From a virus: a stretch of DNA of 55,516 nucleotides. The stretch covers positions 1-55,516 of the IMG/VR virus record IMGVR_UViG_3300035703_000121; one strand, 5' to 3'. Under the pieces are notes generated by a model. That model made no database searches. It saw only the letters and a program-made list of their open reading frames with translations, and was not told the DNA's origin. Of the stretch, positions 5,617 to 46,458 are shown in pieces; position 1 is the stretch's first letter; each line of letters opens with the position of its first letter. The position numbers were made by a program, and so were the translations under genes.

Positions 5617-5618
5617 GA

Positions 5619-26011: not shown

Positions 26012-28688
26012 ACTGTATATCTGTTAATTCGGTAAACTTGGCTTCGGTAGCAATAAACTTTGTTTTTCCGGCAAACAAATCCAAGTTTAATGTGGTTGGA
26101 ATAAAAACCTTATCTTCATTGTTAAAGTAGAAATCGATTAAATTACACGGCCACAACAAAGCCAAAGCAGAAGCCTCGAGCCTAAACATAGTTTCGGCCT
26201 GAATGCCGTGTAAGGCTTTAGCAACTGTTTTTGGGAAGGTATCTACTGTAGTGCTGCCAACTAATTTCCAACGCAATCGGTTAGCAAAGTTTTCAGGAGC
26301 GTACTCTACGTGCATATATTTTAAAACATCGGTTGAATCTACAGCAGGATAGGCTTTGTAGTTTTTTGGTATTACCGGAAAGCCGGTGTATGATTCTAAA
26401 TAAGCCAGTTTAGAATTACTGTCATTTAAAAAATACCATAGAGAATCAAAAGAAGTTTGCTCACCGGTAACTTTTTCCATAAAAGCCGCTTTTTTAAATC
26501 CTTTTTCAAAAAGCAGTTCTATTAACGATGATGAAACATTAAATGTATTGTAATTCAAATCGAGCTCTACATTAGGCGCAAAATAATGATGCGCTAAATA
26601 GTCAGCATTGGATGAAGTACGATCAATAGTTTTAAAGAAATCATCATTAATTGGATAACCAATAGCAAATGAATTTTTTACCGAAGCATCAACAGTACAT
26701 GAAATTGGTAAATCATAAGATAATTTTTGAGTAAAGTTAATTTCACGGAAAGCCGTTAACGATTCGTTTTCATTGTAACCTTCAATTACTTCAAGCTTAA
26801 CTGTATCAGCAATAATTCTTTCAAATGCAATGTTATCCAGCGCAACACTACTTTCTTGAATTATAGGCATTAAAATTCTAAGTTTTAAATAACCTTCAAC
26901 ATCAGAACTAAATGTGAATTTTAGTTTAAAAACCAATTTATAAATACCAGTACCATTATCTGAACTTTGAACCTCATATCGCAAATTTGCATCCGAAGAA
27001 AACGACGGCCTATTACTATACTTTTCTACACCATTTATAAAAATTTGAAAAGGCACTAAACGATCATAATAACCTTCATCAAGTTTGTTTTTAAAAGTAG
27101 TTTCAGATAAGTTTACATTAATACCATCTACAGTAAATTGAAATTCAAATTCATATTTTAAACCAGGCTTCACATATGGCGTTTCAACCGATTCCAAATA
27201 CCTGTTTACCGCAGTGGCTTCGTTTAAATTATAATCGCCCACAGAAGATGTTTTACGCCAATAAAAAATAGAATAGTTTTCTGTAAATGGCGCAGAAGCA
27301 AAAGGGTTGAAAAAAATTGGTGTTATAAATAAGCCCGATAAATTAGAAATCCATTTTTTAAGCTTTACCATTCCATACAATTGAAAAATTGCTGAAACCG
27401 GTAAATTATAGCCAATTGACTTATAGTATGAATAAAACTGTTTTTCTTTATCTATTCTAACTATTTCGTCCGAGAATAAATTTTTACTTCCGTTAGCCTT
27501 AAAATTTAAATTAACTTCACGGAAAGGTGTAAGAGCTGTAAAGTTTGGTGTTGGCTGTAATTTAGCACCACAATCCACCAATTCTTTTTCGGTGATTAAA
27601 TCGGCAATTCTTACACCATTGGTATCAAACTGTAAATTGGTAGTTTCCAATTCGGCACGGCGGTGAACACCTTCTAACCACCAATAGCCTCGAAAACTGT
27701 ACAAAGTCATTAAGTTAGAAGAAACGATATCTTCTAAAATTTCGTAGCAGTCTTTATATTTTTCGCCATCCACAAAGTCGAGCATATTAATGCCGAGCGC
27801 TTCCCAGGTGTATAATTCAGATTCCGGCACAACCGAAGGTTTTACCACTAAGTTTTGCGCCAATCCGGTTTGCTCTAAACAATAGGCAATTACCTTAGCA
27901 ATAGGCAAAGTGTTTTGGTAGTACCAAGCCGGAAAGTATTTTCCTTTTAAACTACCAATCATATCGGTAGCGGTGAAATCTACAAAAAACAATACCTGTT
28001 TGTATGGTTCGTTGTATTGGTCCGGCAGTAAAAAACCGCGCCAAAGCAATTGTTCATCATCCGTTACATTTATTCCCACTACTTCAACACGGTATCGTTT
28101 TTCATCACCGCTAAACAAGTGCAAAAACTTAGCATCCTGCGCATCGAGCACCGCCATATTAAAAACGAGTTTTGATATAGCCAAAGCCTTGGTTAAATCG
28201 TCGCCACCGTTAAAATCGATTTTACAAGCGTTGGCCGAAGCCAATTCCTGAATTAAGATGCGTTCGTTTTCGTAAGTATCATAAATCCTGATACTGATAT
28301 CTTTGTAATCCAAAGCCGGTAAAATTTCCGGTTCCGGCACTGTAATCGTTTCAGTTGCTAAAGTTGTAATGGTACTTCCAGGATCAGTAAGATTTGTAAA
28401 ACTCCAGGTGGCCGCCACTCTTAAATTAACGTAAAAGCCATTGGTGCCCGAAGCTTCAAAGGTGGCAATACCATCTAAATCGTTGGCATTTAAGTTGGTC
28501 AATAAGTTAGTCATGGTTTCGGCCAGGGTTGCACCAATGCGCACCTGGTTAGTAGCTGCCGGAACTCCGGTAACAAATGTTTTACTAAGCCATTTACTGT
28601 AACCCAAAGCCACATTAAACACCGAAAACGACATTAAGTAAAACGCCGTAGGATTAGAAGGAAATGTTATTTTTACTCTATTCGCCAC
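26004..28688 (-). CDS. Large distal tail/baseplate protein
   Basis: 894 residues from a GTG at 28688, which overlaps the stop of the tape measure gene by 11 nt and gives a natural VANRVKITF start. An ATG at 28724 adds 12 residues encoded inside the tape measure 3' end. An N-terminal beta domain (about 1-110) is followed by a long body with motifs such as CKIDFNGGDD and RYRVEVVGINVTDDEQLLWR. It takes the place of the tail-associated (tal-like) protein after the tape measure. No enzymatic domain was seen. Likely forms the tail hub. Confidence 0.68.
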   Translation of the reverse strand: MANRVKITFPSNPTAFYLMSFSVFNVALGYSKWLSKTFVTGVPAATNQVRIGATLAETMTNLLTNLNANDLDGIATFEASGTNGFYVNLRVAATWSFTNLTDPGSTITTLATETITVPEPEILPALDYKDISIRIYDTYENERILIQELASANACKIDFNGGDDLTKALAISKLVFNMAVLDAQDAKFLHLFSGDEKRYRVEVVGINVTDDEQLLWRGFLLPDQYNEPYKQVLFFVDFTATDMIGSLKGKYFPAWYYQNTLPIAKVIAYCLEQTGLAQNLVVKPSVVPESELYTWEALGINMLDFVDGEKYKDCYEILEDIVSSNLMTLYSFRGYWWLEGVHRRAELETTNLQFDTNGVRIADLITEKELVDCGAKLQPTPNFTALTPFREVNLNFKANGSKNLFSDEIVRIDKEKQFYSYYKSIGYNLPVSAIFQLYGMVKLKKWISNLSGLFITPIFFNPFASAPFTENYSIFYWRKTSSVGDYNLNEATAVNRYLESVETPYVKPGLKYEFEFQFTVDGINVNLSETTFKNKLDEGYYDRLVPFQIFINGVEKYSNRPSFSSDANLRYEVQSSDNGTGIYKLVFKLKFTFSSDVEGYLKLRILMPIIQESSVALDNIAFERIIADTVKLEVIEGYNENESLTAFREINFTQKLSYDLPISCTVDASVKNSFAIGYPINDDFFKTIDRTSSNADYLAHHYFAPNVELDLNYNTFNVSSSLIELLFEKGFKKAAFMEKVTGEQTSFDSLWYFLNDSNSKLAYLESYTGFPVIPKNYKAYPAVDSTDVLKYMHVEYAPENFANRLRWKLVGSTTVDTFPKTVAKALHGIQAETMFRLEASALALLWPCNLIDFYFNNEDKVFIPTTLNLDLFAGKTKFIATEAKFTELTDIQYE

Positions 28689-31314
28689 GTCTTTCGCTTT
28701 GGTTTTTTGCTCTGTTAAAAGCAATTAGTAAATCACTACCTTTCAAGGTAACATCAGCAACCATAGGAATCACAGTACCACCGCCACGCTCTAATTGGTT
28801 ATACAATCTTCTTTGTTGGCGATCATTCAAAATAAGCTCACCACTATTCACACGCGCTAAAATACGGTCACCGTAAAAAGAACTACCACCTACAATACCA
28901 CCATCGGCAAAAGCACCTATGTTAGCAACTTGAGATTTAACAATACTTCCTAAAGCAATTAATGCAACCCCGGCAGCTATTGCACCAAATCCTTTTAATC
29001 CAGTTAAAGCTTTTTTTATCGCCTCAATAGCGGTACCTGTTGATATAGCTATTTTACCTAATTGAATTAACATATTTCCTAAACTTGAAAAAATCAATTC
29101 ATTAAAGCCTTTTAACAAACTACCACCATTAAAAGCACCTGCAATAGCTTCACCAATACCCGAAGCAAAACCCTCTAATGTAGATTCAATAGCAGCATTA
29201 AAATCTTCTTGTAAAGAAACAGCGGTACTTTTTAAATCTTCAACTGTTGTTTTTACTTTTTCAGTACCTTTAATATCATTAATAACCAATTGAGTACCGG
29301 TTATTAAATCTTCAAACTCCTGGTATTTTCTTTTACCTTCTTCTGTGGCATTAGAAAAGCGAGATTGTAATTCTCTGTAATAGGATATTTGATTTTCAAG
29401 ATCTTCTAAAGAAAAAGTTGGAATAAAAACACCTTCAGAATCAGCATTAGGAATTTCCGGTTTAGGAATTTTGATTCCTTTTTTAGAAATGGCATCAATT
29501 TGCTTTTGGTAGCCATCTATTTTGGTTTTTAAGATATCAAACTCAGTAGAATTGGTAGCCACTTCCCTTTGCGCTTTTCGAGCCAATTCAATAAGGCTTT
29601 CATAGTAAGCAATGGTTCCAACTTTTAAACCACCAACCGCTTCAACCTGCACACCGGTTTGAGCAATAATAGCTTTTTGGCGTGCGATTTCATTTTCGGT
29701 TAGCTTTGCAGATTTTTGGTCCAATTCTGATTTAACACCTAAAAGATATCTATCTTCTTTTTGCGCTAAAGCATCAGCATCAATTTGTTCCTGCTTAATT
29801 TGTTTTAAAAAACGGTATTGGGTAGCTAATAATTCATTTTTAGTTTTATAAACATCAGCAGTTCCTTTTGAAATACTACCTTCAGCTAAAAGTTGTTTCT
29901 CACCACCTTTATTAATTTCAATGATCCTTTCACGGATTTTTTGTATTTTTTGTTGGCGCTCGATTTCACCTTCTAATCTTTCTTGCGCTCTTTTATCGAG
30001 TTCATTACCAATAGCTGCCGCTTTTGATTTATCAAAAATAGCTTGGCGCAATTCTTTGTAAATACCAACAGACTGTGCGTTCTTTAAATTTTCAAAATCG
30101 ATATTTTTAAAGTACGCAGGATATAATTCCTGTAAACGTTGGTAGGCCGCTTTACGTTCGTCAATACCCAACTTAACATCAGTTGAAGATTTATACAATC
30201 TATCCAAAGTAGATACTTCAGACAAAGCTGCTTTATTTCCGTTGGCAATAGCTGTATTTAATGATTGTTGAGCCGTTACAACTTTAGTTTGGTTTGAATA
30301 CCATAAAGCAAATCCGGCAGCAATTGCCGCAATAGCAACTGCCAAAGCTGTATAAGGATTAGCCGCTATTAAAGCAGACATTGCTGAAAAAGCATCTTTT
30401 AAAGCATTGAACTTAGTAATTAAATTAGGGATAAACGTAAGCAATGCACCGGTAGCAGAAAGCAATGGTCCAATTGCTGCAGCAATACCGGCAATAACCA
30501 CTATGGTTGTTTTGGTTTCCGATGATAAATCGGAAAAGCTTTTAATTAAACCATTCACAAAAGTGATAGCTTTAGTAAAAGCCGGTAAGATAACACTACC
30601 TAACTGCTGTCCTACTTGTTTTAAACTTTCAGTAAAAATTCGGGTTTGGTTAGCAGCACCGCCACCGGTACGCGCAAAATCGCCCTGGGCGTTTTTAGTA
30701 TTAGCCAATATGTATGCGTAGCGCAATTGCACTTTTTCGGCTTGCGAAAAGTCTTTAAACTGTTTGGTGATTCCTTGCGATAAAGCAAATGCCTGAAGAT
30801 TGGTTTCAGTCATTACAATACCGAGTTTTTTAAGCGATTCCGTTTCGCCCGAAAATACTCCGGTTAATGCGGTATTGGCAATATCAATAGAAATGTTTTT
30901 GAATGATGCCAAGTCACCGGCTAAACCCACCAACGATTTAGACATATCGGCAGCGCGATCTACAGGCAAGCCCAAAGAAGTAGCCATATCACCAAAAGTA
31001 GCCGCCATATCCAAGGCAGTTCCTTCGGATATACCAAAGGCAGTTAAGGATTCTTTTGCAAACTCACGAACCGCTGCCGATGAATCGCCAAAGGCCACAT
31101 CAACTTTATTCAAACTTTCCTGGTAATCACTGGCAAACTTTACCGAAGCGGCTCCGGCTGCCAATAAAGGTGTTGTTAAGTAAAGCGATAAGCCATTGCC
31201 CACACTTTGTAGTTCACGTCCGTATTGGTTAATCTTACGGATGCTATTTTGCATTTCGCTTGAGAAGCCTCGCAAATCAGCACTAAACTTAACATTGATA
31301 GAAGCTAAACTCAT
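28678..31314 (-). CDS. Tail tape measure protein
   Basis: 878 residues. The start SLASINVKFSADLRGFSSEM and QYGRELQSVGNGLSLYLTTP, with GAASVKFASDYQESLNKVD, is the classic N-terminus of phage tail tape measure proteins. Hydrophobic segments (TTIVVIAGIAAAIGPLLSAT; GAIAAGVALIALGSIVKSQV) and long coiled coils follow. It sets tail length and passes through the membrane at DNA entry. It is the first gene of a transcription unit with its own predicted promoter 10-70 nt upstream. Confidence 0.92.
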   Translation of the reverse strand: MSLASINVKFSADLRGFSSEMQNSIRKINQYGRELQSVGNGLSLYLTTPLLAAGAASVKFASDYQESLNKVDVAFGDSSAAVREFAKESLTAFGISEGTALDMAATFGDMATSLGLPVDRAADMSKSLVGLAGDLASFKNISIDIANTALTGVFSGETESLKKLGIVMTETNLQAFALSQGITKQFKDFSQAEKVQLRYAYILANTKNAQGDFARTGGGAANQTRIFTESLKQVGQQLGSVILPAFTKAITFVNGLIKSFSDLSSETKTTIVVIAGIAAAIGPLLSATGALLTFIPNLITKFNALKDAFSAMSALIAANPYTALAVAIAAIAAGFALWYSNQTKVVTAQQSLNTAIANGNKAALSEVSTLDRLYKSSTDVKLGIDERKAAYQRLQELYPAYFKNIDFENLKNAQSVGIYKELRQAIFDKSKAAAIGNELDKRAQERLEGEIERQQKIQKIRERIIEINKGGEKQLLAEGSISKGTADVYKTKNELLATQYRFLKQIKQEQIDADALAQKEDRYLLGVKSELDQKSAKLTENEIARQKAIIAQTGVQVEAVGGLKVGTIAYYESLIELARKAQREVATNSTEFDILKTKIDGYQKQIDAISKKGIKIPKPEIPNADSEGVFIPTFSLEDLENQISYYRELQSRFSNATEEGKRKYQEFEDLITGTQLVINDIKGTEKVKTTVEDLKSTAVSLQEDFNAAIESTLEGFASGIGEAIAGAFNGGSLLKGFNELIFSSLGNMLIQLGKIAISTGTAIEAIKKALTGLKGFGAIAAGVALIALGSIVKSQVANIGAFADGGIVGGSSFYGDRILARVNSGELILNDRQQRRLYNQLERGGGTVIPMVADVTLKGSDLLIAFNRAKNQSERRGE

Positions 31315-31323
31315 ATAATACCG

Positions 31324-31382
31324 CTTTTTAACGGTATAAAAGTACCTTTCAATGGTAGTTTTATTGCGGACGTTTTGTCCGT
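31324..31382 (-). promoter_or_regulatory. Phage promoter-like element, copy 1 (upstream of tape measure)
   Basis: On the minus strand ACGGACAAAACGTCCGCAA (31364-31382, dyad CGGAC/GTCCG), one variable base, then exactly 18 bp, then TACTTTTA (31337-31344, TAnnTTT-like -7 box), then CGTTAAAAAG. The tape measure ATG follows at 31314. The same blocks and spacing recur at 38956-39014, and the first two at 39474-39519. Confidence 0.78.
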
Positions 31383-31390
31383 TTTTACCA

Positions 31391-31418
31391 TAAAAAAAAA
31401 CCAGTCTTTAAGACTGGT
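31391..31418 (-). terminator. Terminator at the 3' end of the HNH gene
   Basis: Stem ACCAGTC/GACTGGT followed on the minus strand by a nine-T run. It contains the HNH stop codon and lies just before promoter copy 1. Confidence 0.78.
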
Positions 31419-31986
31419 TTCCTTCGGCATACTTATTTTCAATACCATATTTATTTAAGGCATTTAAATAAGCAATATGTGCTTCTTCTGGCGTTAAAAA
31501 TCGGCCTAAATTTTTAGTTTTATTATTAATAGAAATACGTGCCGCCCATCTTTTTAATCTTTGATTACTTTTATCATAAGTAACCCCTGTATAATTAGAC
31601 ATGGTTTTTTTACTTTTATAATAATGTGTAGTATTCTCTCTAATTGTTAACCACTCTAAATTCAAATAATAATTATTTAATTTATTTAAATCTTTATGGT
31701 TTCCTTTATGTTTTTTAGTTGGCTTTTTACCAATAAAACATTCTAAAACTAATAAATGAACAGAAAATCGCTTTTGTAAACCATCTTTACATAACACAAC
31801 AACATAATATGCATTTTTAGCATAAACAGAAAGCTTTAAATCCCTACCTTTCATTACTCTTTTTACACCAGAATAATGATTTACTAAAAAATCAAAACTT
31901 CTAACATTACCCCAAGAAGATATTTGATACAAACCTTCATAACCCGGAATATCTTTCCATTGTTCCGGTTCTCTAACTTCTTCCAT
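31408..31986 (-). CDS. Free-standing HNH endonuclease with NUMOD4 and AP2-like domains
   Basis: 192 residues. NUMOD4 motif WKDIPGYEGLYQISSWGNVR near 11-30, HNH_3 core with HKGNHKDLNKLNNYYLNLEW near 98-117, and a C-terminal AP2-like segment NYTGVTYDKSNQRLKRWAAR then NLGRFLTPEEAHIAYLNAL. This is the layout of homing endonucleases that invade phage genes. It is bracketed by terminators (32035-32060 upstream, 31391-31418 downstream) and is more AT-rich than the tail genes, which suggests later insertion. Confidence 0.85.
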   Translation of the reverse strand: MEEVREPEQWKDIPGYEGLYQISSWGNVRSFDFLVNHYSGVKRVMKGRDLKLSVYAKNAYYVVVLCKDGLQKRFSVHLLVLECFIGKKPTKKHKGNHKDLNKLNNYYLNLEWLTIRENTTHYYKSKKTMSNYTGVTYDKSNQRLKRWAARISINNKTKNLGRFLTPEEAHIAYLNALNKYGIENKYAEGNQS

Positions 31987-32034
31987 GATTTTTAAAAAAT
32001 TTTTATTAAAACTTTAACATAAAACATCCATTTT

Positions 32035-32060
32035 AAAAAAAGCACGGCTTTCACCGTGCT
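32035..32060 (-). terminator. Terminator after the tail chaperone pair
   Basis: Stem AGCACGG/CCGTGCT with six-base loop, then T6 on the minus strand. It ends the portal-to-chaperone transcript upstream of the inserted HNH gene. Confidence 0.75.
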
Positions 32061-32097
32061 TCCCCACCAAACTAAATTTTGGTTAACCAACCCAAAA

Positions 32098-32444
32098 TCA
32101 TTTTTTTTCGCCATCTTGTTTTGCATAGAAGGCTTTTACATCTTCAATTTCCTGAAGGAATTTTTCGTAATCGGCTTCAGTCATTTTTTTGATAACTGCT
32201 TCTTCAAATCCAAAGGAAATAATATCTGTTGGTTTAAAGTTTCTTTTTTGATGCGGCATCATACACGCCCACATAACGTTTCGCATTATGATAAGTCGCT
32301 CCTGACTTTCCGCATCTTTTTCTTTTTGGTAACCGGTAAGCTTATTGTTAAACTCCCGATAGGTTAACTTGTAAAACTGTTTTGGTGATAGCCTTAGTTG
32401 TCCAAAAGCAATAGCTTCGAGATCATCCCAGGTTAATTCTACTT
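32098..32444 (-). CDS. Tail assembly chaperone extension (gpT-like), made by -1 frameshift
   Basis: The -1 frame stays open from the slippery site to a TGA at 32098. It reads VELTWDDLEAIAFGQLRLSP then KQFYKLTYREFNNKLTGYQ and ends ...EDVKAFYAKQDGEKK, about 114 residues. This is the usual T part of a G-GT chaperone: helical, hydrophilic, between tail tube and tape measure. An internal ATG at 32286 gives only 62 residues and cuts off the conserved start, so a fused product is preferred. Confidence 0.78.
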
Positions 32445-32822
32445 TTTGTTTGCTCCCGTTTTGATCGGAGCTTTCTGCTTTCCCTCGGCTTTAGGCATAG
32501 AATCCATAAAAGCTTTGAAAACTAACTCAATTGCATTAGTCATTGTTTTCATATCCGACAAATACAATTCATCCAATTCATCGGCGGTTAACGTTTCTGT
32601 ATTCTCTGTATTGGCTTCAATAGCACAAAGAATAATATCGTTAATCACATCGATTTGCTCAAAGGTTAAATTGTCGGTCATATTTTCAAAAATGGTTAGT
32701 TTTTGAATAACCTCATTTAAACCAGGAACGTTCCACTTAACCGAAAGCAAACGCAAAACCTTCATGCCGAATTTCAGCACGAAGGTTTTTTTGTTTAGCT
32801 CTAATTTTAAAGAATCATTCAT
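32439..32822 (-). CDS. Tail assembly chaperone (gpG-like)
   Basis: 127 residues, acidic and helical (LKLELNKKTFVLKFGMKVLR, then TEQ-type helices, TADELDELYLSDMKTMTNAI). It lies two genes before the tape measure, ending at TAG 32439. It chaperones the tape measure during tail assembly. A slippery heptamer lies right before the stop and leads into the downstream frame. Its start overlaps the previous stop by one base. Confidence 0.8.
   Translation of the reverse strand: MNDSLKLELNKKTFVLKFGMKVLRLLSVKWNVPGLNEVIQKLTIFENMTDNLTFEQIDVINDIILCAIEANTENTETLTADELDELYLSDMKTMTNAIELVFKAFMDSMPKAEGKQKAPIKTGANKK
32442..32448 (-). promoter_or_regulatory. Programmed -1 frameshift slippery site
   Basis: On the minus strand C AAA AAG directly before TAG. 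Slipping back one base re-pairs AAG as AAA and continues into the open downstream frame. Location at the end of a gpG-like gene is as in lambda-type phages. Confidence 0.68.
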
Positions 32823-33295
32823 TAAACAGTATATTTTATAATTCTAATAAATAAGTTATCTGTGAAATTTATGTTTTGAAAATCATTGTAATAAGTATAT
32901 ATCTTAATTGAATTTAAAGATTGAATATCAAACTTAGTAACAACAGTATTCAAGTAACTTGAATCCCAAATCTCAACAGTTGAAGTAGCATTTAAAAAAT
33001 CAGCAACACTTTCTTCAGTTATAACACAATTAACAGTATCGTTAACTGCTGTTAAAGTTTGCCCTAATGTATTTTTGAACTCAGTAAGAGTAAAAGTAGC
33101 AGAAGAACCTGAACCAGTTTTAGTTAATTTTGCAACGTACTCTAAATAGGTTGGAGCTAACGCTCCAACCTCTTGATCTACATAATCAACAACATCTTTC
33201 ATCTTTCCACCTACATCAGAAGGCGAAACTGAACCTGGAGTCGTTTCACTAGTAATCGCCGCATCAATAGCAGCTTTTAATTCTACGTTTGTCAT
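32822..33295 (-). CDS. Hypothetical tail protein
   Basis: 157 residues. The first part (VELKAAIDAAITSETTPGSV, then SPSDVGGKMKDVVDYVDQEV) looks like the N-terminal linker found in Bacteroidota phage structural proteins. The second half is beta-rich. It is placed between tail tube and chaperone. Possibly a tail decoration protein; no direct proof. Confidence 0.55.
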   Translation of the reverse strand: MTNVELKAAIDAAITSETTPGSVSPSDVGGKMKDVVDYVDQEVGALAPTYLEYVAKLTKTGSGSSATFTLTEFKNTLGQTLTAVNDTVNCVITEESVADFLNATSTVEIWDSSYLNTVVTKFDIQSLNSIKIYTYYNDFQNINFTDNLFIRIIKYTV

Positions 33296-33355
33296 ATTGT
33301 ATTTTTAAAAAATTTACGAAAACTCACTACTGAACTCACTAGTGAAAACGCTAGC

Positions 33356-33769
33356 TCACGCAGAAACGGTTGCTTTAGTTAAGTCGCCATTCCCTTTAAA
33401 AGAGAAGCTACCTTGCACCGATTGCCCTACGGTTGCATCGATAGAAGCACTTTCTACATACACTTTACCAGTGTATTTCCACTCACCGGTTTCATTTGTA
33501 GAAAACTCGAAATCCAATTCGGTTTTCGCTAACAAATAATCCAGGATTTCATCGGCACTTTTATGCGTAGTATCACCCGAAGGCAAAGTAGCAAAAAGCG
33601 CATCGGTAGAAGCATTCCAAGTATAGTTACCCGGAGTATTTACCGATCCTTCAGTATCTTTAGTCGCAATTTCTTCGAGCGACATCGAGATATCTAATTT
33701 ACAAGAAGTTGCATGGTAAATAGTTTTACCTTCAGCACTTATACGAACATTTTTCCCTTGAAAAATCAT
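33356..33769 (-). CDS. Major tail tube protein (TP901-1 type)
   Basis: 137 residues. MIFQGKNVRISAEGKTIYHA near the start, CKLDISMSLEEIATKDTEG, then YTWNASTDALFA and the C-terminal GSFSFKGNGDLTKATV follow the pattern of the TP901-1/phi13 tail tube family. It polymerises around the tape measure. It lies between tail completion and chaperone genes, in canonical order. Confident from pattern and position. Confidence 0.82.
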   Translation of the reverse strand: MIFQGKNVRISAEGKTIYHATSCKLDISMSLEEIATKDTEGSVNTPGNYTWNASTDALFATLPSGDTTHKSADEILDYLLAKTELDFEFSTNETGEWKYTGKVYVESASIDATVGQSVQGSFSFKGNGDLTKATVSA

Positions 33770-33774
33770 AATTT

Positions 33775-34119
33775 CTAAGTTGTTTGAATATTTATAATTC
33801 CGTTAAACAGTTTCAATTCGGCATCATATTCCACATCCGAAAGTTTCCAGTGATAAACTCGCGATCCTTTAAACATTTCGGTTAAAGTATCGGTTAACTC
33901 CACGCAATCATCGTAGTTTAAAAACCACAAAAACAAAGCGATATCGTACAAATCACCATCGGTAGATAATTCGTTACGCTGCACGCGGTAGGTTGCCAAA
34001 GGAAAGTTTTTCCCTTCGGGAGCCATAAACGGATATACTTCCTGATTTAAGACATCGGTAAAAGCCGATTGCCCTAATAAGTAAGAACGGAATTCCGTTG
34101 ATTTGCTTTTTAAACCCAT
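33775..34119 (-). CDS. Tail completion/terminator protein (DUF3168/gpU-like)
   Basis: 114 residues. FTDVLNQEVYPFMAPEGKNF, with FPLATYRVQRNELSTDGDLY near 37-58 and DDCVELTDTLTEMFKGSRVY near 70-90, matches the small alpha/beta tail terminators. It caps the tail tube and joins it to the head. Gene order (HK97-gp10, this, tail tube) is standard. Confidence 0.72.
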   Translation of the reverse strand: MGLKSKSTEFRSYLLGQSAFTDVLNQEVYPFMAPEGKNFPLATYRVQRNELSTDGDLYDIALFLWFLNYDDCVELTDTLTEMFKGSRVYHWKLSDVEYDAELKLFNGIINIQTT

Positions 34120-34121
34120 GG

Positions 34122-34646
34122 TTAACTTAGTTTATCAATTTTCTTTTGAATGAATGCTGCCATTCTTTTTTCGGCATCAGCCGTTACTACCCCATCGGTA
34201 GCTTTGTATGCGTTTGTCATGAAAGGCGTTGCCCTGGTGCGCGATTTTATTCCGGCACTGTTATTCGCACCGGCAGTACGTTTGCGCTTAAATCCCTTTT
34301 GGTAAACCGCATGGCCATCGTGTACAAAATGACCGTACCAACCATCAAAACTACCTTTAGCCCGCGGACCGGCATAAATTGTTGGATTCTTAGCTTTGCG
34401 ACCGGTAATTAAACCAATCGATTTTTGCAAAGAACGCGGCTGCACTAATTTTTTAGTTCGTTTACCGGAAACCCAATGTGCTTTAGGTGATACCGGAACC
34501 AACTGCTTTGCCGATTGTACTGTTGGCCTTGCGACCATTCGGAGTATTGCTAATGTTTCGCGCTTTTTATCTTTGTCATCTGCCAATTTTTTTAACTGAT
34601 CAGTTAACTTATCAAAGCCTATAACATCAACCCGAATATTACTCAT
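34122..34646 (-). CDS. HK97-gp10-like tail-head component
   Basis: 174 residues. GFDKLTDQLKKLADDKDKKR near the start and VRP-like AILRMVARPTVQSAKQLVPV near 28-48, then a very basic middle, match the HK97 gp10 family. These proteins act at the head-tail joint. It overlaps the closure gene by 8 nt. Confidence 0.78.
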   Translation of the reverse strand: MSNIRVDVIGFDKLTDQLKKLADDKDKKRETLAILRMVARPTVQSAKQLVPVSPKAHWVSGKRTKKLVQPRSLQKSIGLITGRKAKNPTIYAGPRAKGSFDGWYGHFVHDGHAVYQKGFKRKRTAGANNSAGIKSRTRATPFMTNAYKATDGVVTADAEKRMAAFIQKKIDKLS

Positions 34647-34971
34647 ACAACTTGCAAATCAATTTTAAGTGCGATTTTCTGCCAATTTCCATAACATGAT
34701 TCACCTGGAAGCGCGTACCGTTATCAATAAGAAGTAAGGTGTTTTGCTTTTGCAGAACTTCACTTCGGTACCGGATAACGTAGGTACGATTTACCAAATG
34801 AATTACACGACCTTCTTCATCTTCGCCACCGGAAACTTCTTCCATAAAAGCAAACGGTTCACAAACTGTAACTTCGGCATCCGTTTCAAAACCGGTATCG
34901 GTTTTGGTTTTGGTTACTTCTACAATTTGCACCTTACGGTCCATTTGCCCAACGAAAGGTTTTTTTTCCAT
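34639..34971 (-). CDS. Head-tail adaptor/closure protein
   Basis: 110 residues, beta-rich: GQMDRKVQIVEVTKTKTDTG near 8-27, FAFMEEVSGGEDEEGRVIHL near 41-60, then TYVIRYRSEVL. This is the SPP1 gp16/Phage_H_T_join pattern. It closes the connector after DNA packaging. Confidence 0.78.
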   Translation of the reverse strand: MEKKPFVGQMDRKVQIVEVTKTKTDTGFETDAEVTVCEPFAFMEEVSGGEDEEGRVIHLVNRTYVIRYRSEVLQKQNTLLLIDNGTRFQVNHVMEIGRKSHLKLICKLYE

Positions 34972-34974
34972 AGC

Positions 34975-35547
34975 TTAGTAATTTCGGTATGGTCGCATTA
35001 AAGAACGTGATGCGGAATTGTTTCCGATTTCGCCAATATCTTCACGGCGCTCATACATAGATGTTACCATCAATAGTATGGCTTGGTAAATTGGTTTTGG
35101 CAATGTTTTCGGTTCGTAACCTTGCTTAATTTCGATAATTACAGCATCATCACGCTCGGCAGTTTCAGGATAGCTTTCAAACTTGATTTCTTTACAACCA
35201 ATAGTGCTGCTTTTACGAAGTTTGTAGTTAGTATCTTCCATTGCTGTAGTTTCGGTTGCACCAGGCGCGTAATAAACAATACTTTTTACAGTATCGTTAT
35301 CAGCACTTTGTGTAAACTCGAAAGTAGCAGAAAGACTGTCTAACTCAAAGGTTTTAACACCCGGATTTAATACACGGCCGGTATAATCTTCGGCAGCTGC
35401 AACCGCCGCATTAATATAGCCCTGGATTAAATCATCTTCTTCTTCAAAATCAGCTTCTAAACGAAGCTGTTTTTTTACTTGCACCAATGTTACCAAAGCG
35501 GTATCATCGGTACTATCAGGCGTAAAGAAATGGTTTGTTACTTTCAT
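34975..35547 (-). CDS. Head-tail connector (gp6-like)
   Basis: 190 residues from the ATG at 35547; the open frame to 35580 overlaps the next gene, so I use the inner ATG. DTALVTLVQVKKQLRLEADF, then EEEDDLIQGYINAAVAAAED and YTGRVLNPG near 13-55, is the gp6 connector signature (VKxxLRxdxxxdDxxI..yI.aA). It forms the ring under the portal. Confidence 0.82.
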   Translation of the reverse strand: MKVTNHFFTPDSTDDTALVTLVQVKKQLRLEADFEEEDDLIQGYINAAVAAAEDYTGRVLNPGVKTFELDSLSATFEFTQSADNDTVKSIVYYAPGATETTAMEDTNYKLRKSSTIGCKEIKFESYPETAERDDAVIIEIKQGYEPKTLPKPIYQAILLMVTSMYERREDIGEIGNNSASRSLMRPYRNY

Positions 35548-35557
35548 GACCTTTTTT

Positions 35558-35740
35558 TTACTTATCTGAAGTATCAGCATCAGTAGTTACAGGAGCATCT
35601 TTCGAATTGCAAAAAGTTGCATATCCTAAATCAACAATTTCAGTTGCTAATTTTTTTTCAACTTCAGCAACTTGACCTTCACTTTGCGGTAAACCAAATC
35701 TTAGTAATGGTAAAACCGCTTTAATTTTTACATTTGCCAT
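35558..35740 (-). CDS. Hypothetical small structural-region protein
   Basis: 60 residues from the ATG at 35740 (MANVKIKAVLPLLRFGLPQS), which is preferred over the ATG at 35785 that lies in the hairpin/T-rich leader. Ends in an acidic Thr/Asp tail. It lies between capsid and connector, where head decoration or completion proteins are often found. Confidence 0.58.
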   Translation of the reverse strand: MANVKIKAVLPLLRFGLPQSEGQVAEVEKKLATEIVDLGYATFCNSKDAPVTTDADTSDK

Positions 35741-35759
35741 GTTTTTTCTTTTTTTTTTT

Positions 35760-35793
35760 AAAAATGGATGCTTATGAAAAAGCATCCATTTTT
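35760..35793 (-). terminator. Strong hairpin between capsid and next gene
   Basis: Thirteen-bp stem AAAATGGATGCTT/AAGCATCCATTTT with a six-base loop, just after the capsid stop. The U-run is within the stem end. Likely a partial terminator or mRNA stabiliser that raises capsid expression over downstream genes. Confidence 0.62.
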
Positions 35794-35801
35794 ATGTTAT
35801 G

Positions 35802-37100
35802 TTATGCAGTCATAAAGTTGTTTTTAGCAAACGCTTTAGGGTTTGCAATTTGAACATCAGCTTCCATGTTAATAATTAAATTAACTGAAGCAGCTGAAGC
35901 AGCGGCAGTAGAACCTGAATCCACAACAATTTCAATTCCACCCCAAACACCTACATACAACTGAGAGAAATCACCAAAAATAATTGGGAAAGTATCAGGA
36001 GTACCAGCGATCTTTTTAACTAAAGAAGTCGATACTGTAGGATAACCATCAATAAGATTGTTTTGCATAATAGCACCACCCATATCAGTTCCTTTGGAAA
36101 CCGTTTTAAGTTTTGCTTTCAATTTAGGATTACACAAATATCCCATTGAGATTTCTGTAGAATCAGCATCTTCAACCAAACCTTGTAGCTCAACAATATT
36201 TGCATAAGTCGGAGCACCGGCAGAAGTTTGATTAGCAGAAGCAGAAACACCGGAAATATTTAAAATACCAACAGGCTCATTATTTACAGACAAACCTTGA
36301 ATTGCCGCACTTTCTAAAGCTCTACGAATACCATTCTGCAATCTCATTCTAATAGCATTTTCTACATCAATAGAAGATTGCATGATAAGCTTACGTGTAA
36401 TAGAAACTAAAGCACCAACTCTTTTTGGAGAAAGCTTAGGACCAACAAATTTTTGTTTTTGACCGCTTAAAGACTCCCCTTCTTCCAACCATTCAAATGT
36501 ATAATTTGAAGATACAGGCAAAGGAATATCGCCACCGGTTAAACCAGTCCAAACGTTAGCACCTAATTCTTCCAAAAATAATTTTGGCATGAATCCTTCA
36601 ACCAATACCGGTGAACCATCAACAACTAATTGACCACCATATTCACCATCATCCTGGGTAACAGTTTGCTGAGCCGCACGCGACATAAAACTTTCAGGAA
36701 CGTAAACAGCATTTGGATTTACTTCCAAACCGCGTGATTCACGCTCAGCAATAGCTAATTCCTGAGCTTCTTTTTCAGCACCGGTTAATTTACCACCAAG
36801 AACACCTCTTAAGTGAGCAGCTAAAGAGTAAGTTCTTTTTTGCTTACCACTTCTTTTTTTGTTTTGATCTTGGTTTTCTAAAAGCGGATCACCACCTTCT
36901 AACGAACGAAGATTTTCTTCATAAGCTACAGCATCGGCGATTTGACCGTTTAAACCTTCGATTTCACTTTGCAGCGTTCTGAACTGCGAAGTTTCTTCTT
37001 CGGTTAAATTTCTTTTTTCGGCTTCAGCGGTTGCGTGAAGCGCTCTTTGAGCTTCAATCTTAGAAGCTCTCAACTGCTTTAATTGTGCGGATTTTTTCAT
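35802..37100 (-). CDS. HK97-fold major capsid protein
   Basis: 432 residues. The first 70 or so residues are a charged coiled coil (delta/scaffold domain, ESE-type heptads such as EAEKRNLTEEETSQFRTLQS), followed by a basic stretch KKRSGKQKRTYS. The mature domain has VEGFMPKLFLEELGANVWTG, KLIMQSSIDVENAIRMRLQN and FGDFSQLYVGVWGGIEIVVD near the C-terminus, typical of HK97-type capsids. It follows the protease by 6 nt, which removes the N-terminal scaffold. Confidence 0.92.
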   Translation of the reverse strand: MKKSAQLKQLRASKIEAQRALHATAEAEKRNLTEEETSQFRTLQSEIEGLNGQIADAVAYEENLRSLEGGDPLLENQDQNKKRSGKQKRTYSLAAHLRGVLGGKLTGAEKEAQELAIAERESRGLEVNPNAVYVPESFMSRAAQQTVTQDDGEYGGQLVVDGSPVLVEGFMPKLFLEELGANVWTGLTGGDIPLPVSSNYTFEWLEEGESLSGQKQKFVGPKLSPKRVGALVSITRKLIMQSSIDVENAIRMRLQNGIRRALESAAIQGLSVNNEPVGILNISGVSASANQTSAGAPTYANIVELQGLVEDADSTEISMGYLCNPKLKAKLKTVSKGTDMGGAIMQNNLIDGYPTVSTSLVKKIAGTPDTFPIIFGDFSQLYVGVWGGIEIVVDSGSTAAASAASVNLIINMEADVQIANPKAFAKNNFMTA

Positions 37101-37106
37101 TTCCTT

Positions 37107-37730
37107 TTACAAATTTTGATTAATAAATAATTGAGCCTCAAAAGCACTGAGCTCTTTTTCGTTGCGAGTTTGCTCGGTTGTATTTTCTGTGGAAGATTTT
37201 TTTAAATCTTCGCGGATTTCTGCAATAGTTTCGGCGCTGCGTTTAAGCGCATCCGGGTTGGAACCAATAGGCACAATGGACCATTCGTATAACTCGGTTC
37301 GGGTGAAATAGATCACACCAGGGTTTTCCCCTGCCTGAGCATCGCCATAACGCCACTCTTTTACGTTGGCGCCTACCGATGCCATGCGCAATGTTCCGGC
37401 TTGTACTTTTTTCCAAATGGTATCGGCCGTAGGGTTAACATCGGCTTCTTCAAAGCGAACTTTACCAATAAGCTGATTGCCTTCGACACGAACCTCACTG
37501 GTTCCGATAATCATATCAGGGTTATCGCTCCAGGTACGGTGGCCGTATGCTACAATAGGGTTATTGTTGTATCGGGTTAAATCCCAACCATCAATTTTAA
37601 AAACGGTGTCGTAAGTATCGACCGCTTCGGTAGAAATCACAAATTCAGCTTCGCGATTCTTAATATTTTCATCGGTAAGCGCACGTATAACCGCTTCACG
37701 AATAACACTTTTAGGCGCTGTTCTTTCCAT
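37107..37730 (-). CDS. HK97-family prohead protease
   Basis: 207 residues. AEFVISTEAVDTYDTVFKID near 24-43, NNPIVAYGHR near 55-64 with the catalytic His, then TLRMASVGANVKEWRYG near 113-130 with the catalytic Ser. This is the S78/U35 fold. It cleaves the capsid scaffold during maturation. It overlaps the portal gene by 20 nt. Confidence 0.88.
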   Translation of the reverse strand: MERTAPKSVIREAVIRALTDENIKNREAEFVISTEAVDTYDTVFKIDGWDLTRYNNNPIVAYGHRTWSDNPDMIIGTSEVRVEGNQLIGKVRFEEADVNPTADTIWKKVQAGTLRMASVGANVKEWRYGDAQAGENPGVIYFTRTELYEWSIVPIGSNPDALKRSAETIAEIREDLKKSSTENTTEQTRNEKELSAFEAQLFINQNL

Positions 37731-38949
37731 TTCCTTGCTTTTTAATATTAGCTTCTAATTGTTTTTCGGTGTAAGTATTGGTTGGTGTTAGGTATTCATC
37801 TAACAATTTTGGCCCGGCATTCATTTCTTCTAAAGCGCGGCCTTCATTTCGATTCATCAATCCGTAGTACACTGCTTTTCCGATGTACTCGATTCGGGTG
37901 CGCATATCGGCACGAACCAAAACGTTTAGATTACCTCGGATGAAGTATTCTTTAACTTTGTCGGCATCGGTAAATAGTTTGAATTGTAACTCCTGTTCGA
38001 AGTTGGTGCAATGCGGCTGAATAGTATCGGAAACGTGATCTAAAGATTGTTGCTCGATATTATTATTGGTGGATTGCTTTAATGATTTGATTTTGTGCAG
38101 CGCAATGTTAAACCAACGCGCGATATCTTCGATAGTTACTTGGTTTAATTCTACGATTTGCGCTTCTTCTGGTGTTATCGATATAGAATTAAAAGTCATT
38201 CCTTCATCGAGAACTGTAACCCTATCCGGTGACTTTTCGGCCATTGCATTTTTAAAGGCGGTAACAATTGCTTTTTTAGCTGCCGGATTTGTTGTTTTAT
38301 CGGTAGTAATAATACCCTGGCGAACTCCTTTGTTTTCCAAAACGGTTTGGGTGTAATCTTGCAACTCTAAAGCAATATTCATTTGCTGTGCTGCATAGCT
38401 TATTACCGAAACACCTACTAAGCCGTTAAGCGAAAAAAGCTTGATGTGAATTACCTCGGAAGCCAATAACGGTTTTCTGTAGCCTTTGATGTAGTAAAGC
38501 ACTTCGGCACCGTTTTTCTTTACATCGGTAACATCATCCCATTTTACAAAAACAAGCTCTACCGGAATGCCACGCGAATCGGTTTTGATTACCGATAAAC
38601 CGTTACCGCGCAATAAGGCAGAAGTCCACATGGTTTTTTTCCAGGTGAACGGTGTCATGTGCGCATTTGGGCGATCATTAAGGAGTTTGTGAACGTAGTG
38701 GGATTTATCTTTTACGCTGTTGCCATCTTGTTTGTAGTAAACGAAAAAAGGGATTTTAGCCAAATCGTTGCTGATTTGCTCTACAGCGTTATAAACCGCG
38801 GAAAGTTTTAAAGAGTTTTTATAGTTTGAAGGTGAAGTTTTTGCACCAACACCGCCGGAACCAAAAGAGAAAACACCATCGAACAGACTGCCGCCCTGGT
38901 AATTACGATTTGTGCCGGAAAACGTTGATTTAAAGACCTTATCAAACAT
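37711..38949 (-). CDS. HK97-family portal protein
   Basis: 412 residues. Portal landmarks are LKLSAVYNAVEQISNDLAKI near 49-68, PFFVYYKQDGNSVKDKSHYV, HKLLNDRPNAHMTPFTWKKT and the C-terminal GRALEEMNAGPKLLDEYLTP. It forms the 12-mer vertex for packaging and tail attachment. It is the first gene after promoter copy 2 and is separated from the terminase group by the non-coding island. Confidence 0.92.
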   Translation of the reverse strand: MFDKVFKSTFSGTNRNYQGGSLFDGVFSFGSGGVGAKTSPSNYKNSLKLSAVYNAVEQISNDLAKIPFFVYYKQDGNSVKDKSHYVHKLLNDRPNAHMTPFTWKKTMWTSALLRGNGLSVIKTDSRGIPVELVFVKWDDVTDVKKNGAEVLYYIKGYRKPLLASEVIHIKLFSLNGLVGVSVISYAAQQMNIALELQDYTQTVLENKGVRQGIITTDKTTNPAAKKAIVTAFKNAMAEKSPDRVTVLDEGMTFNSISITPEEAQIVELNQVTIEDIARWFNIALHKIKSLKQSTNNNIEQQSLDHVSDTIQPHCTNFEQELQFKLFTDADKVKEYFIRGNLNVLVRADMRTRIEYIGKAVYYGLMNRNEGRALEEMNAGPKLLDEYLTPTNTYTEKQLEANIKKQGNGKNSA

Positions 38950-38955
38950 GATATA

Positions 38956-39014
38956 CTTTTTAACAATGTAAAAGTATAATGGCTGAAAGGTATAATTGCG
39001 GACGTTTTGTCCGT
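38956..39014 (-). promoter_or_regulatory. Phage promoter-like element, copy 2 (upstream of portal)
   Basis: ACGGACAAAACGTCCGCAA on the minus strand (38996-39014), one base plus 18 bp, then TACTTTTA (38969-38976) and GTTAAAAAG (38956-38964). The portal ATG is at 38949. Spacing between the blocks is the same as in copy 1. Confidence 0.78.
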
Positions 39015-39122
39015 TTTTAATTTAATGTAGAAAACCACGAAAACGAAAATACAGCCGCTTTTGTTTATAAGTAAAGTTGTTTTCCTGGAAATTAAAAGTT
39101 ATGTTTGTAACAGACGTAAAAT

Positions 39123-39147
39123 AAAAAACCGAAGGTGCGAACTTCGG
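39123..39147 (-). terminator. Minus-strand terminator at the left edge of the island
   Basis: Stem CCGAAG/CTTCGG with seven-base loop, followed on the minus strand by TTTTTTATTTT. It would stop leftward transcripts before promoter copy 2. Confidence 0.65.
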
Positions 39148-39168
39148 TCTTTCTAAATTTTCTGTCTT

Positions 39169-39246
39169 ATGTCCTACATCAAATCACTGATGAAGAAGTT
39201 TAAATCTTTTGAGTTTACTCTATTGAGTATTCGAATTAAGAAGTAA
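39169..39246 (+). CDS. Possible 25-residue basic peptide
   Basis: ATG at 39169, TAA at 39244-39246. MSYIKSLMKKFKSFEFTLLS followed by IRIKK: basic and amphipathic. It is the only ORF of the plus-strand island transcript. Its length alone is weak support, and the same bases take part in predicted RNA pairing. Confidence 0.3.
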   Translation: MSYIKSLMKKFKSFEFTLLSIRIKK

Positions 39247-39295
39247 ACTTTGGGAGAAAGTCTAACGGGATGTAGACGCTCCACCGGTTTTAAAA

Positions 39296-39325
39296 GCCCT
39301 TTGTTACAGCAAAGGGTTTTTTATT
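39296..39325 (+). terminator. Plus-strand terminator at the right edge of the island
   Basis: Stem CCCTTTG/CAAAGGG with six-base loop and TTTTTTATTTTT on the plus strand. No annotated plus-strand gene lies upstream, so it points to an unannotated rightward transcript. Confidence 0.72.
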
Positions 39326-39385
39326 TTTACAAATATAGTAATAAAAATAATACCACGTGCACCGAGTTAATTTTTTTTTGGCAAT

Positions 39386-39417
39386 AAAAAAAGCCTACCA
39401 AGCGGCAGGCTTTTTTT
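39386..39417. terminator. Bidirectional terminator
   Basis: Stem GCCTACC/GGCAGGC (one mismatch) flanked by A7 and T7, so it works on both strands. It would end a short leftward RNA from promoter copy 3. Confidence 0.7.
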
Positions 39418-39473
39418 CGAAGTTTTAAACATTACCTAAATCATTTACATGAAAAAAATACAGAACGTGAGTA

Positions 39474-39519
39474 CAATAATAGGCAATGATGTTTATTTAT
39501 TTGCGGACGTTTTGTCCGT
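39474..39519 (-). promoter_or_regulatory. Phage promoter-like element, copy 3
   Basis: ACGGACAAAACGTCCGCAA (39501-39519) lies in the last codons of 39493-39939, then one base plus 18 bp and TATTATTG (39474-39481), closer to TAnnTTTG than copies 1 and 2. A start near 39467 would give about 80 nt to the terminator at 39386-39417. The third block (GTTAAAAAG) is not present. Confidence 0.65.
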
Positions 39520-39939
39520 TTGTTCTAAATGATTAAAAAGACCAATAGGAGTTGATGATGGCTGCGCAGTCAAAGATTTTATATACTGCTCATTCATTTT
39601 TTGAAAATCAGAATCTATTTTTTTAGCAATTAACTTTCTTGATTGATTTTCAATTGATTCTAATGAATTAGGATTAAAATCCACTTTGTAATTTTGCCCA
39701 TCATATACATGATTAATTACACCAATTTCAAGACCATTGACAGTTAAAATAAATGAATTAAAAGAACCTGGGATTACTTTTTTATCATAAGCCTTGCAAT
39801 ATTTCCCAAAATATTCATTTAAAACTTTATTAATTAATTTTTCTTCTAATTCAATAATTGATTCTAACACTTTAGAATCCATTTCTTTAAAAGAAAAATC
39901 AATATTAAGTTTGTTTTTTACAAATTTAGGATCACTCAT
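39493..39939 (-). CDS. Hypothetical protein downstream of terminase
   Basis: 148 residues, AT-rich coding sequence. Helical N-terminus (KVLESIIELEEKLINKVLNE), a beta middle and a Gln/Ser/Thr-rich end. No known domain. Its C-terminal codons (DKTSANK) contain promoter-element copy 3. It overlaps the membrane gene upstream by 8 nt. Confidence 0.55.
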   Translation of the reverse strand: MSDPKFVKNKLNIDFSFKEMDSKVLESIIELEEKLINKVLNEYFGKYCKAYDKKVIPGSFNSFILTVNGLEIGVINHVYDGQNYKVDFNPNSLESIENQSRKLIAKKIDSDFQKMNEQYIKSLTAQPSSTPIGLFNHLEQTDKTSANK

Positions 39940-40120
39940 TTTCTTTCAAATTTTTAACTTCAAACTTTACCCAAAAAAAGCCTGAAAGCAGTTCGACAAT
40001 TATTAAAATTACAACCAAGGCATAGCGCACAGGGTTGAAGGCTATAAAACTCCAGGAAAGCAATAAGGATGTAAGCATAGCCAAGACAAAGGTAAACAAG
40101 ATTATAAAAGGTATTTTCAT
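39932..40120 (-). CDS. Small two-helix membrane protein
   Basis: 62 residues. Two hydrophobic helices, IPFIILFTFVLAMLTSLLLS near 3-22 and YALVVILIIVELLSGFFWV near 33-51, with a charged tail KFEVKNLKENE. Function unknown; location after terminase is unusual for a holin. It overlaps the upstream gene by 4 nt. Confidence 0.58.
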   Translation of the reverse strand: MKIPFIILFTFVLAMLTSLLLSWSFIAFNPVRYALVVILIIVELLSGFFWVKFEVKNLKENE

Positions 40121-40398
40121 TTTTTTTGATTTTGATAGTAACGTTTCAGTGATTTTCGGAAAGCTTCGTTATTGGTAAACATAAATTTACCAAATAAATC
40201 GAAGTATGTGTTGTTAACCTGGTGAAAGGCATCTTCGTTGGTTTTTGCTATTGGCAGCAGTTTAAAATAGTGATCAAAGAAACCTTTTCGGGTTCCGAGT
40301 TGCTTCATTAGTTCATTTTCGCGGCGTAGTTTTTCGATTTCAAGGCGTAAGGCGTTTTCTTCGTTGGGCGTCATAAATTGGGCGGTTTTGGTTAGCAA
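40117..40398 (-). CDS. Hypothetical terminase-region protein
   Basis: 93 residues. An N-terminal coiled coil (NALRLEIEKLRRENELMKQL) then an aromatic-rich globular part (YFKLLPIAKTNEDAFHQVNN, TYFDLFGKFMF). It overlaps the terminase stop by 7 nt. No family recognised. Confidence 0.55.
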   Translation of the reverse strand: MLTKTAQFMTPNEENALRLEIEKLRRENELMKQLGTRKGFFDHYFKLLPIAKTNEDAFHQVNNTYFDLFGKFMFTNNEAFRKSLKRYYQNQKK

Positions 40399-44982: not shown

Positions 44983-46458
44983 CTAAAACGGACTATCATC
45001 TTCACCAAACGCTTCACCAGGTGATGGCTTCGGTAACTCTTTATTGTCGATATATTCTACCCTTTCAAAGCTATCGGTAACATCAACAAACTTTGTCTTA
45101 TCGCCCACCCAACGCAGTAAAGTAGTTCCAACAGAACCGGCACGATACTTAGCAAATATCACTTCACTATTTGCTCCGGCATTAATTAAACTATGTAAGC
45201 TATCATCGTATTGAGTTTCATCAATATCGATGTGGTAATACTCTGGGCGATAAAGGAACTGTACAATATCTGCATCCTGTTCAATCGCACCACTATCACG
45301 CAAATCAGATAACAACGGTCTTTTACTTGCACCGCGCGTTTCACATTGGCGGCTTAACTGCGACAATGCTATAATCGGTATATTCAATTCCTTCGCCAAC
45401 TTCTTTAACCTTCTACTAATGGAAGATATTTCAGCTTCACGATTACCCTTAACACTTCTATCAGTCATTAGCTGAATGTAGTCGATAATCAAAACTTTAA
45501 TGCCATACTTGCGCTGCCAAAGCTTTGCCTGTATTACGATATCAGTAATATCAGTTTTACCCGAATCATCAATGTAAAGCGGATATTTACTCATTCGCTC
45601 CTGGTGTTGTGTATAGCTTTGAAAGTAATCGTTCTTTTCAAATCCCTTTTTCAACAACTGCCCAAGATGAAAGCTTGTGTCAATTGCAACTGCACGCGCC
45701 GTTAATTGCTCAACAGACATTTCCAAAGAGATAATTCCAACCGCTTCATCCTTCTTACAATTCTCAATGGCGCACTTCAAAACATAACTCGTTTTACCCA
45801 TACCAGGACGAGCAGCAACAATCACCAAATCTTGTTTGCGATAACCACCGGTAGATTTATTGATAATAGAAAAGCCAGTATCAATACCAACCAACTTCAC
45901 TTCATCTTTGTTATTGCTTAACAACTGTACACTTTCTTTCAAGTTTTGCAATGCAGCCGGAAAACTCATTGTAGTTCTTCCGGTAGATACCGAATCTTCT
46001 ATGCTATCAAAAGCCTTTTGCCAACCACGCAACAAATCAAAAACATCCACACCATCATCATAAGCAAAAGAAATGTTCTGACTGCTAAACATGATAATCT
46101 TACGGCGCATCCAGTGCTGTAAAACAATTCGGCAGTGGTAATCAATGTGAGCGCTACTCGATATCTTTTGTGTAAGCTGAATCAAATAAAAATCACCGCC
46201 GGCATTCTCTAACTGCTTTTGCTTTTTTAACTCATTCGATACCGTAAGCATATCAATCGGTTCGCCTTGGTTGTATAGCGATACAATAGCCTGGAATATC
46301 AATTGATGTTCATACTTGTAAAAAACTTCAGCAGTAGGCAATATCAACATTGCATCTTCCAATCCCGATTTATCAATCAGCATAGCACCCAAAATTGCTT
46401 GTTCTAAGTCAATTGCTTGTGGTGGAAGTTTGCCGTTTATTGTTTCTAAATTTTCCAT
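44983..46458 (-). CDS. dnaB: Replicative DNA helicase, DnaB family
   Basis: 491 residues. The N-terminal DnaB domain (PPQAIDLEQAILGAMLIDKS near 11-30) is followed by the RecA-like domain: Walker A VAARPGMGKTSYVL near 213-226, GIISLEMSVEQL, Walker B KVLIIDYIQLMTD near 320, and SQLSRQCETRGASKRPLLSD near 365-385. It unwinds the fork as a hexamer. It is coupled to the upstream replication gene by a one-base overlap. Phage A uses other replication genes. Confidence 0.93.
   Translation of the reverse strand: MENLETINGKLPPQAIDLEQAILGAMLIDKSGLEDAMLILPTAEVFYKYEHQLIFQAIVSLYNQGEPIDMLTVSNELKKQKQLENAGGDFYLIQLTQKISSSAHIDYHCRIVLQHWMRRKIIMFSSQNISFAYDDGVDVFDLLRGWQKAFDSIEDSVSTGRTTMSFPAALQNLKESVQLLSNNKDEVKLVGIDTGFSIINKSTGGYRKQDLVIVAARPGMGKTSYVLKCAIENCKKDEAVGIISLEMSVEQLTARAVAIDTSFHLGQLLKKGFEKNDYFQSYTQHQERMSKYPLYIDDSGKTDITDIVIQAKLWQRKYGIKVLIIDYIQLMTDRSVKGNREAEISSISRRLKKLAKELNIPIIALSQLSRQCETRGASKRPLLSDLRDSGAIEQDADIVQFLYRPEYYHIDIDETQYDDSLHSLINAGANSEVIFAKYRAGSVGTTLLRWVGDKTKFVDVTDSFERVEYIDNKELPKPSPGEAFGEDDSPF

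Follow-up and report, generated by a model that had tools for sequence, protein, structure and literature searches.

A putative two-lock late promoter with a phage-specific dyad upstream of portal and tape measure genes in temperate phages

The virus record IMGVR_UViG_3300035703_000121 from IMG/VR, analysed here over its full 55,516 nucleotides ('the window'), carries a repeated element made of a 15-bp dyad, a fixed spacer and a box resembling the −7 element of Bacteroidota promoters, and two copies of it lie just upstream of the portal and tape measure protein (TMP) genes. Elements of the same build, with dyad sequences of their own, precede the same two genes in ~20 related phages; the dyads of one phage switch in concert, and the RNA reading through the element is predicted to fold into a hairpin over the translation start, beyond what is seen at control starts. 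We propose, with a probability of roughly 0.8, that the element is the late promoter of a clade of temperate phages and that it is secured by two locks, an activator-binding dyad and an RNA hairpin.

Results

The 21-mer AAACGGACAAAACGTCCGCAA occurs in three exact copies in the window, all on the minus strand, and no further copy is present in the record at one mismatch or fewer. From the last base of the dyad to an 8-base, TA-starting box there are 22 nt in every copy, the boxes of copies 1, 2 and 3 being TACTTTTA, TACTTTTA and TATTATTG; the constant spacing of three minus-strand copies claimed in a preliminary description of this DNA is thus borne out. Copy 1 has its dyad (CGGACAAAACGTCCG) at 31367–31381, with the centre 30 nt 5′ of the first T of the box at 31337–31344, and precedes the TMP gene (28678–31314; PHROGs phrog_1535, E 1e-40). 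Copy 2 has its dyad at 38999–39013 and its box at 38969–38976, and precedes the portal gene (37711–38949; phrog_12, E 2e-98). With the box-to-start distance of Flavobacterium johnsoniae, in which the box occupies −12 to −5 (PMC6847099), the predicted transcription starts fall at ~31332 for TMP and ~38964 for portal. The start codons are at 31314 and 38949, so that both copies lie ~50 nt upstream of them, as had been described, and the PHROGs matches support both gene identities.

Copy 3 is different. Its dyad (39504–39518) lies within the last codons of an open reading frame at 39493–39939, its −7-like box is at 39474–39481, and a terminator at 39386–39410 is predicted to stop its transcript after ~80 nt. 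It is therefore not a normal gene promoter: it drives no gene and would yield a short RNA only. The terminator said to precede each copy is indeed found ahead of copies 1 (31391–31420) and 2 (39121–39150), whereas that of copy 3 lies downstream. An extra copy before portal, which would give a short RNA ended by a terminator, is also seen in the related phage G401 (~8515–8600; window 39386–39469), and the two leaders look alike by eye.

Relatives of the window phage were found by searching with the major capsid protein (MCP); a search based on the portal protein found no close relatives. The capsids of the phages found in this way are 71–85% identical to that of the window, and the gene order is the same. 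The CGGAC dyad is absent from ~20 related IMG/VR phages, all MCP-found relatives included. Each relative has a 15-bp dyad of its own before portal and TMP, followed by exactly 22 nt and then TAnnTTTA; the commonest dyads are GTTACAT-A-ATGTAAC, GTTGAAT-A-ATTCAAC and GTTAAAT-A-ATTTAAC (GTTACATAATGTAAC, GTTGAATTATTCAAC and GTTAAATAATTTAAC), and variants of these occur. The CGGAC motif of the preliminary description is hence real in the window but is not a family-wide sequence, being the window's version of a wider element. Complete relatives usually have two perfect sites only, at portal and TMP, and G403 has a third between them.

We compiled a table of 37 distinct sites from 21 phage records, picked by the dyad alone with the box left out of the search. 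At 22 nt after the dyad, all 37 sites have a box that starts with TA, 34 read TAnnTTTA, and at −5 there is an A in 35 sites and a G in two. We also scanned 2.9 million viral contigs for AGTTNNATNATNNAACC followed, after any gap of 11–31, by TACTTTTA. Among the 29 distinct matches, 24 have a gap of 21, equivalent to 22 nt after the dyad, and all 24 of these lie directly before a portal or TMP homologue; the other five (gap 18 in four, gap 24 in one) are non-palindromic and are located elsewhere. The binomial probability of 24/29 at one gap, given equal chances for 21 gaps, is 4e-26, a value that is too small because the phages are related, although the conclusion is not in doubt. It had been proposed beforehand that a dyad, a fixed spacing and TAnnTTT should be found before portal and TMP genes of related phages, and this is what the scan returned. 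Dyad, spacing and position in the relatives together support the original suggestion that a −7-like box preceded by a dyad of the activator type forms a late promoter specific to the phage, although the element proves larger than first noted, since the identity of the dyad is phage-specific and the promoter lies within a hairpin.

Of the 12 phages with both sites, 11 have one and the same dyad type at portal and TMP (permutation p 5e-5), and portal proteins that are 92% identical stand behind different dyad types (G404 versus G410). Given that the two sites within a phage nearly always agree and that near-identical relatives differ, the sites of one genome evidently evolve in concert and rapidly. 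Such behaviour is not expected of a structural or accidental feature; concerted change of the dyads argues for a trans-acting, dimeric factor that switches specificity. As a separate observation, L170 (G416) has two candidate late promoters in tandem before TMP (5584–5708), one for each common dyad type, perhaps a remnant of a switch in specificity.

In F. johnsoniae, the −7 element (TAnnTTTG) spans −12 to −5, and T−12, A−11, T−8, T−7, T−6 and G−5 are nearly invariant (PMC6847099). Placed on this ruler, the dyad extends from −49 to −35 and is centred on −42. Position −42 is that of class II activators at CRP-type promoters. The boxes described here share the TAnnTTT core of the −7 box of Bacteroidota sigma-A promoters (−33/−7, TAnnTTTG; PMC6847099), but A replaces the near-invariant G at −5 in 35/37 sites, and the form found at −12 to −5 is TAnnTTTA (34/37) rather than TAnnTTTG. 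This substitution suggests a weak promoter, and a weakened −7 box helped by a dimeric activator would be the natural reading of these sequences. The host phylum is probably Bacteroidota: the box points to it, as do the flavobacterial literature and the capsid, whose nearest cultured relative is that of Cellulophaga phage phi39:1. An intrinsic terminator lies within 140 nt upstream of 15 of 17 TMP promoters and 4 of 16 portal promoters (background, 9/400), which suggests that portal/head and TMP/tail form two late units with the same dyad at both.

Translation in F. johnsoniae proceeds without a Shine-Dalgarno sequence and is tuned partly by structure near the start (PMC6847099). We compared the predicted folding of the read-through RNA (spacer through codon 10) with that of dinucleotide shuffles, and found a mean z of −3.5 over 34 promoters; the late RNA, beginning 5 nt past the box, has a mean z of +0.6, and control starts give z ~ +0.4. 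At 30/34 promoters the start region is predicted to be more accessible in the late RNA than in the read-through RNA. Shuffling the 5′ untranslated region alone weakens the fold at 29/34 (p<0.05), compared with 1% of 150 other starts of the same phages, and 29 starts that have a −7-like box and no dyad have a median z of +0.5. In the window, the predicted hairpin over the TMP start region spans 31285–31361 on the minus strand (inner arms 31330–31337 and 31318–31325; −18.3 kcal/mol, z −2.9), and that over the portal start spans 38936–38991, also on the minus strand, with the AUG paired to a spacer CAU (−13.7 kcal/mol, z −3.1).

At most sites the predicted 5′ arm includes or adjoins the −7 box, and the other half of the hairpin covers the start region. 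With the box so placed, the start should be shut off in read-through RNA and exposed in late RNA. Many portal promoters have an extra outer stem in which spacer bases pair with codons 2–7. Within one phage, the portal and TMP promoters have different arms (TTTTACCC..GGGTAAAA; ACTACTTTTA..TAAAAGTAGT), and the stems shift register between phages, indicating that structure is kept rather than sequence. The block GTTAAAAAG, taken in the preliminary description for a third box shared by copies 1 and 2, is present in both but is not a separate box: it belongs to these folds, as part of the fold-back to the −7 region.

Among candidate activators we considered p93, a universal small protein of 93 aa encoded downstream of terL (40117–40398, minus strand). 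Its structural model is all-helical, with four helices (pLDDT 91.5), and has no match in the PDB; p93 is not favoured, since phages that lack the promoter also have homologues of it. An excisionase-like protein (48640–48939), a DnaA-C-like protein (47939–48277), a D5-like regulator (47403–47936; phrog_323, 8e-7), which is not universal, and a small helix-turn-helix protein (47182–47406) showed no clean sorting with dyad type. The same is true of a 50-aa protein that is present in the GTT-type phages checked and absent from the window and G401. No window protein scanned matched the Mor/C family in Pfam or PHROGs.

A 19-mer scan of IMG/VR for the window sequence gave two other, unrelated contigs, G001 and G002, and the exact 21-mer is common to the window and G001. 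The tail-tip proteins of G001 and the window are 93–98% identical, so that the two phages probably have the same host. In G001 the dyad lies ahead of a conserved RNA and the terS/terL operon. When two loop positions were loosened, the window dyad had four matches among GTDB contigs, none in a comparable setting, and a loop-free version found, besides G001 and G002, only coding repeats and unrelated sites in IMG/VR. Taken alone, these exact-sequence matches would leave the element rare and ambiguous.

The conserved RNA is a non-coding RNA of ~200–230 nt, found at 39121–39337 of the window and at 10362–10580 of L004 (G001), on the minus strand in both. It combines a TATATTTG promoter of its own, an invariant CUUUUAAAACCGGUGGAGCGU, a hairpin in which pairing is kept although the arms vary (GUCUA/UAGAC versus GUUUAU/AUAAAC) and a terminator, and is placed after the CGGAC dyad in both phages; no Rfam family matches this intergenic RNA. 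A palindrome of the GTAATATTTTATATTAC type that abuts a consensus −7 box recurs at 54700, 68601 and ~69440 of L004/G001 and at 49564 of the window, apparently representing another class of phage operator-promoter.

The window appears to comprise portions of two or more prophages. The early region of one, with an S24 repressor and an integrase, would run from 1 to ~19.3 kb; a second, of ~32 kb, comprises minus-strand late genes (tail genes, TMP, capsid, portal and TerL), a helicase, a repressor and an integrase, up to 52 kb; and a fragment of another tail module follows after 52 kb. The dyads are confined to the 32-kb prophage. A weak tRNA-like sequence (52177–52252, minus strand) beside the integrase gene (50863–52065) is possibly an attachment site. 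Tail-tip modules that are 89–98% identical occur at 20874–22764 and 55128–55484 of the window and at 2–646 and 45092–46979 of G001, and such sharing between neighbouring prophages of different kinds suggests exchange of host-range genes among tandem prophages.

Discussion

A dyad upstream of a promoter could also be the operator of a CI/Cro-like prophage immunity repressor that silences late genes in the lysogen. A 15-bp dyad in this position would suit a repressor, and the differences in specificity among the relatives resemble those of immunity regions. We nevertheless consider this unlikely, given that the perfect dyads of complete relatives are at portal and TMP (with the one more between them in G403) and none is in the immunity region, and that no copy is found close to the repressor of the window (49644). 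The recognition helices of the window and G403 repressors are nearly the same (SLKTVQNYEKG and SLKTISNYEKG), yet the dyads are unrelated, and the box is off consensus at −5, as expected of an activator-dependent promoter. Slightly less likely still is that a host transcription factor reads the dyad, with dyad types following host species. The window and G001, which share an exact 21-mer and, to judge from their tail-tip proteins, probably a host, would fit such a factor; however, 395 sampled Bacteroidota genomes lack a GTT-type dyad with gap and box, the four GTDB matches to the loosened window dyad are not comparably placed, and phages from one metagenome have different dyad types.

It is very improbable, in our view, that the dyad acts in RNA as a nut/boxB-like antitermination hairpin. 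The window sequence CGGAC-AAAAC-GUCCG would make a 15-nt hairpin with a 5-bp stem and a 5-nt loop, terminators are nearby and the asymmetric flanks are conserved, but the perfect 7-bp arms around one base in the relatives would be poor RNA hairpins. The fixed 22-nt spacing to the −7 box is a feature of DNA, and copies 1 and 2 come after terminators, not before them.

Several observations weigh against a late promoter with an activator dyad and a hairpin. No gene for the activator was found, in that no gene family sorts with dyad type. In G001 and G002 the window dyad is present unchanged, but no −7 box follows it at the window spacing. The portal dyad of G408 is degenerate, that of G401 is an asymmetric site with no clear palindrome, and G416 has two dyad types in tandem. 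Phage phi39:1 and distant TerL relatives showed no convincing site and no spacing peak. Finally, no hairpin signal is present at G403 14599 or at the TMP promoters of G412 and G420.

Elements of the proposed control are known from other phages. Late promoters of P2/P4 are activated by Ogr/Delta, and the late operons share a dyad site, TGT-N12-ACA near −55. A shared dyad site is likewise found here, but the sites in our table are 15-bp dyads at −42 and not TGT-N12-ACA near −55. The phage Mu late promoters Plys, PI, PP and Pmom are activated by C, of the Mor/C family, which binds next to the −35 region and is needed by host RNA polymerase (PMC4461284). Several late units of Mu thus have an activator site in common beside the −35 region, just as the dyad lies at −49 to −35 before portal and TMP; Mu differs in using sigma-70 and a −10 box, whereas in the present phages close relatives differ by concerted changes of the dyad and the promoter is enclosed in a predicted RNA hairpin. 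In phage T4, the late promoters of genes e, soc, 49 and I-TevI are placed inside the 5′ half of a hairpin that masks the site where ribosomes begin: the long transcripts made early cover that site by folding, and transcripts from the late promoter, which are without the 5′ strand, are translated (PMC3014915). An inhibitory hairpin over the start in read-through RNA, as at T4 e and soc, is what folding predicts here. The T4 late promoters are TATAAATA, for gp55, and the hidden genes encode lysozyme or a homing enzyme, unlike the Bacteroidota-type −7 box, probably Shine-Dalgarno-less starts and virion-assembly genes (portal and TMP) of the phages described here. By analogy, then, the DNA level would work like the Mu C promoters and the RNA level like T4 gene e, with no claim of membership in either family, and the combination may be regarded as a variant of known logics.

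We envisage that a phage-encoded homodimeric factor, made after induction, would bind the 15-bp dyad at −42 and recruit or activate host RNA polymerase, with the Bacteroidota sigma-A, at the weakened TAnnTTTA box, so that the portal/head and TMP/tail transcripts would begin together. In RNA reading through from upstream, the −7 region and the spacer would pair back over the start of translation, and portal and TMP would stay silent; RNA from the late promoter would start in the loop, lack the 5′ arm and be translated. The hairpin should thereby stop early RNA from yielding portal and TMP too soon.

In the literature searched, mostly outside subscription journals, we found no description of late-gene control in temperate Bacteroidota phages or of such promoters. 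The element provides an exact, testable promoter architecture in ~20 phages, and its activator should be findable because its specificity must change with the dyad. If it is found, the sites would offer orthogonal, inducible promoters for Flavobacterium and Bacteroides genetics. The promoter-in-hairpin logic of T4 apparently recurs in phages of an unrelated group, at their portal and tape measure genes. More tentatively, and with rather less confidence than we place in the promoter itself, the clade may have a late activator family of a new type whose DNA specificity switches in step with its sites, in the manner of immunity repressors; prophages residing side by side in one cell would then be spared cross-firing of their late genes, and the promoter-in-hairpin lock would block stray synthesis of portal and TMP, which presumably initiate head and tail assembly.

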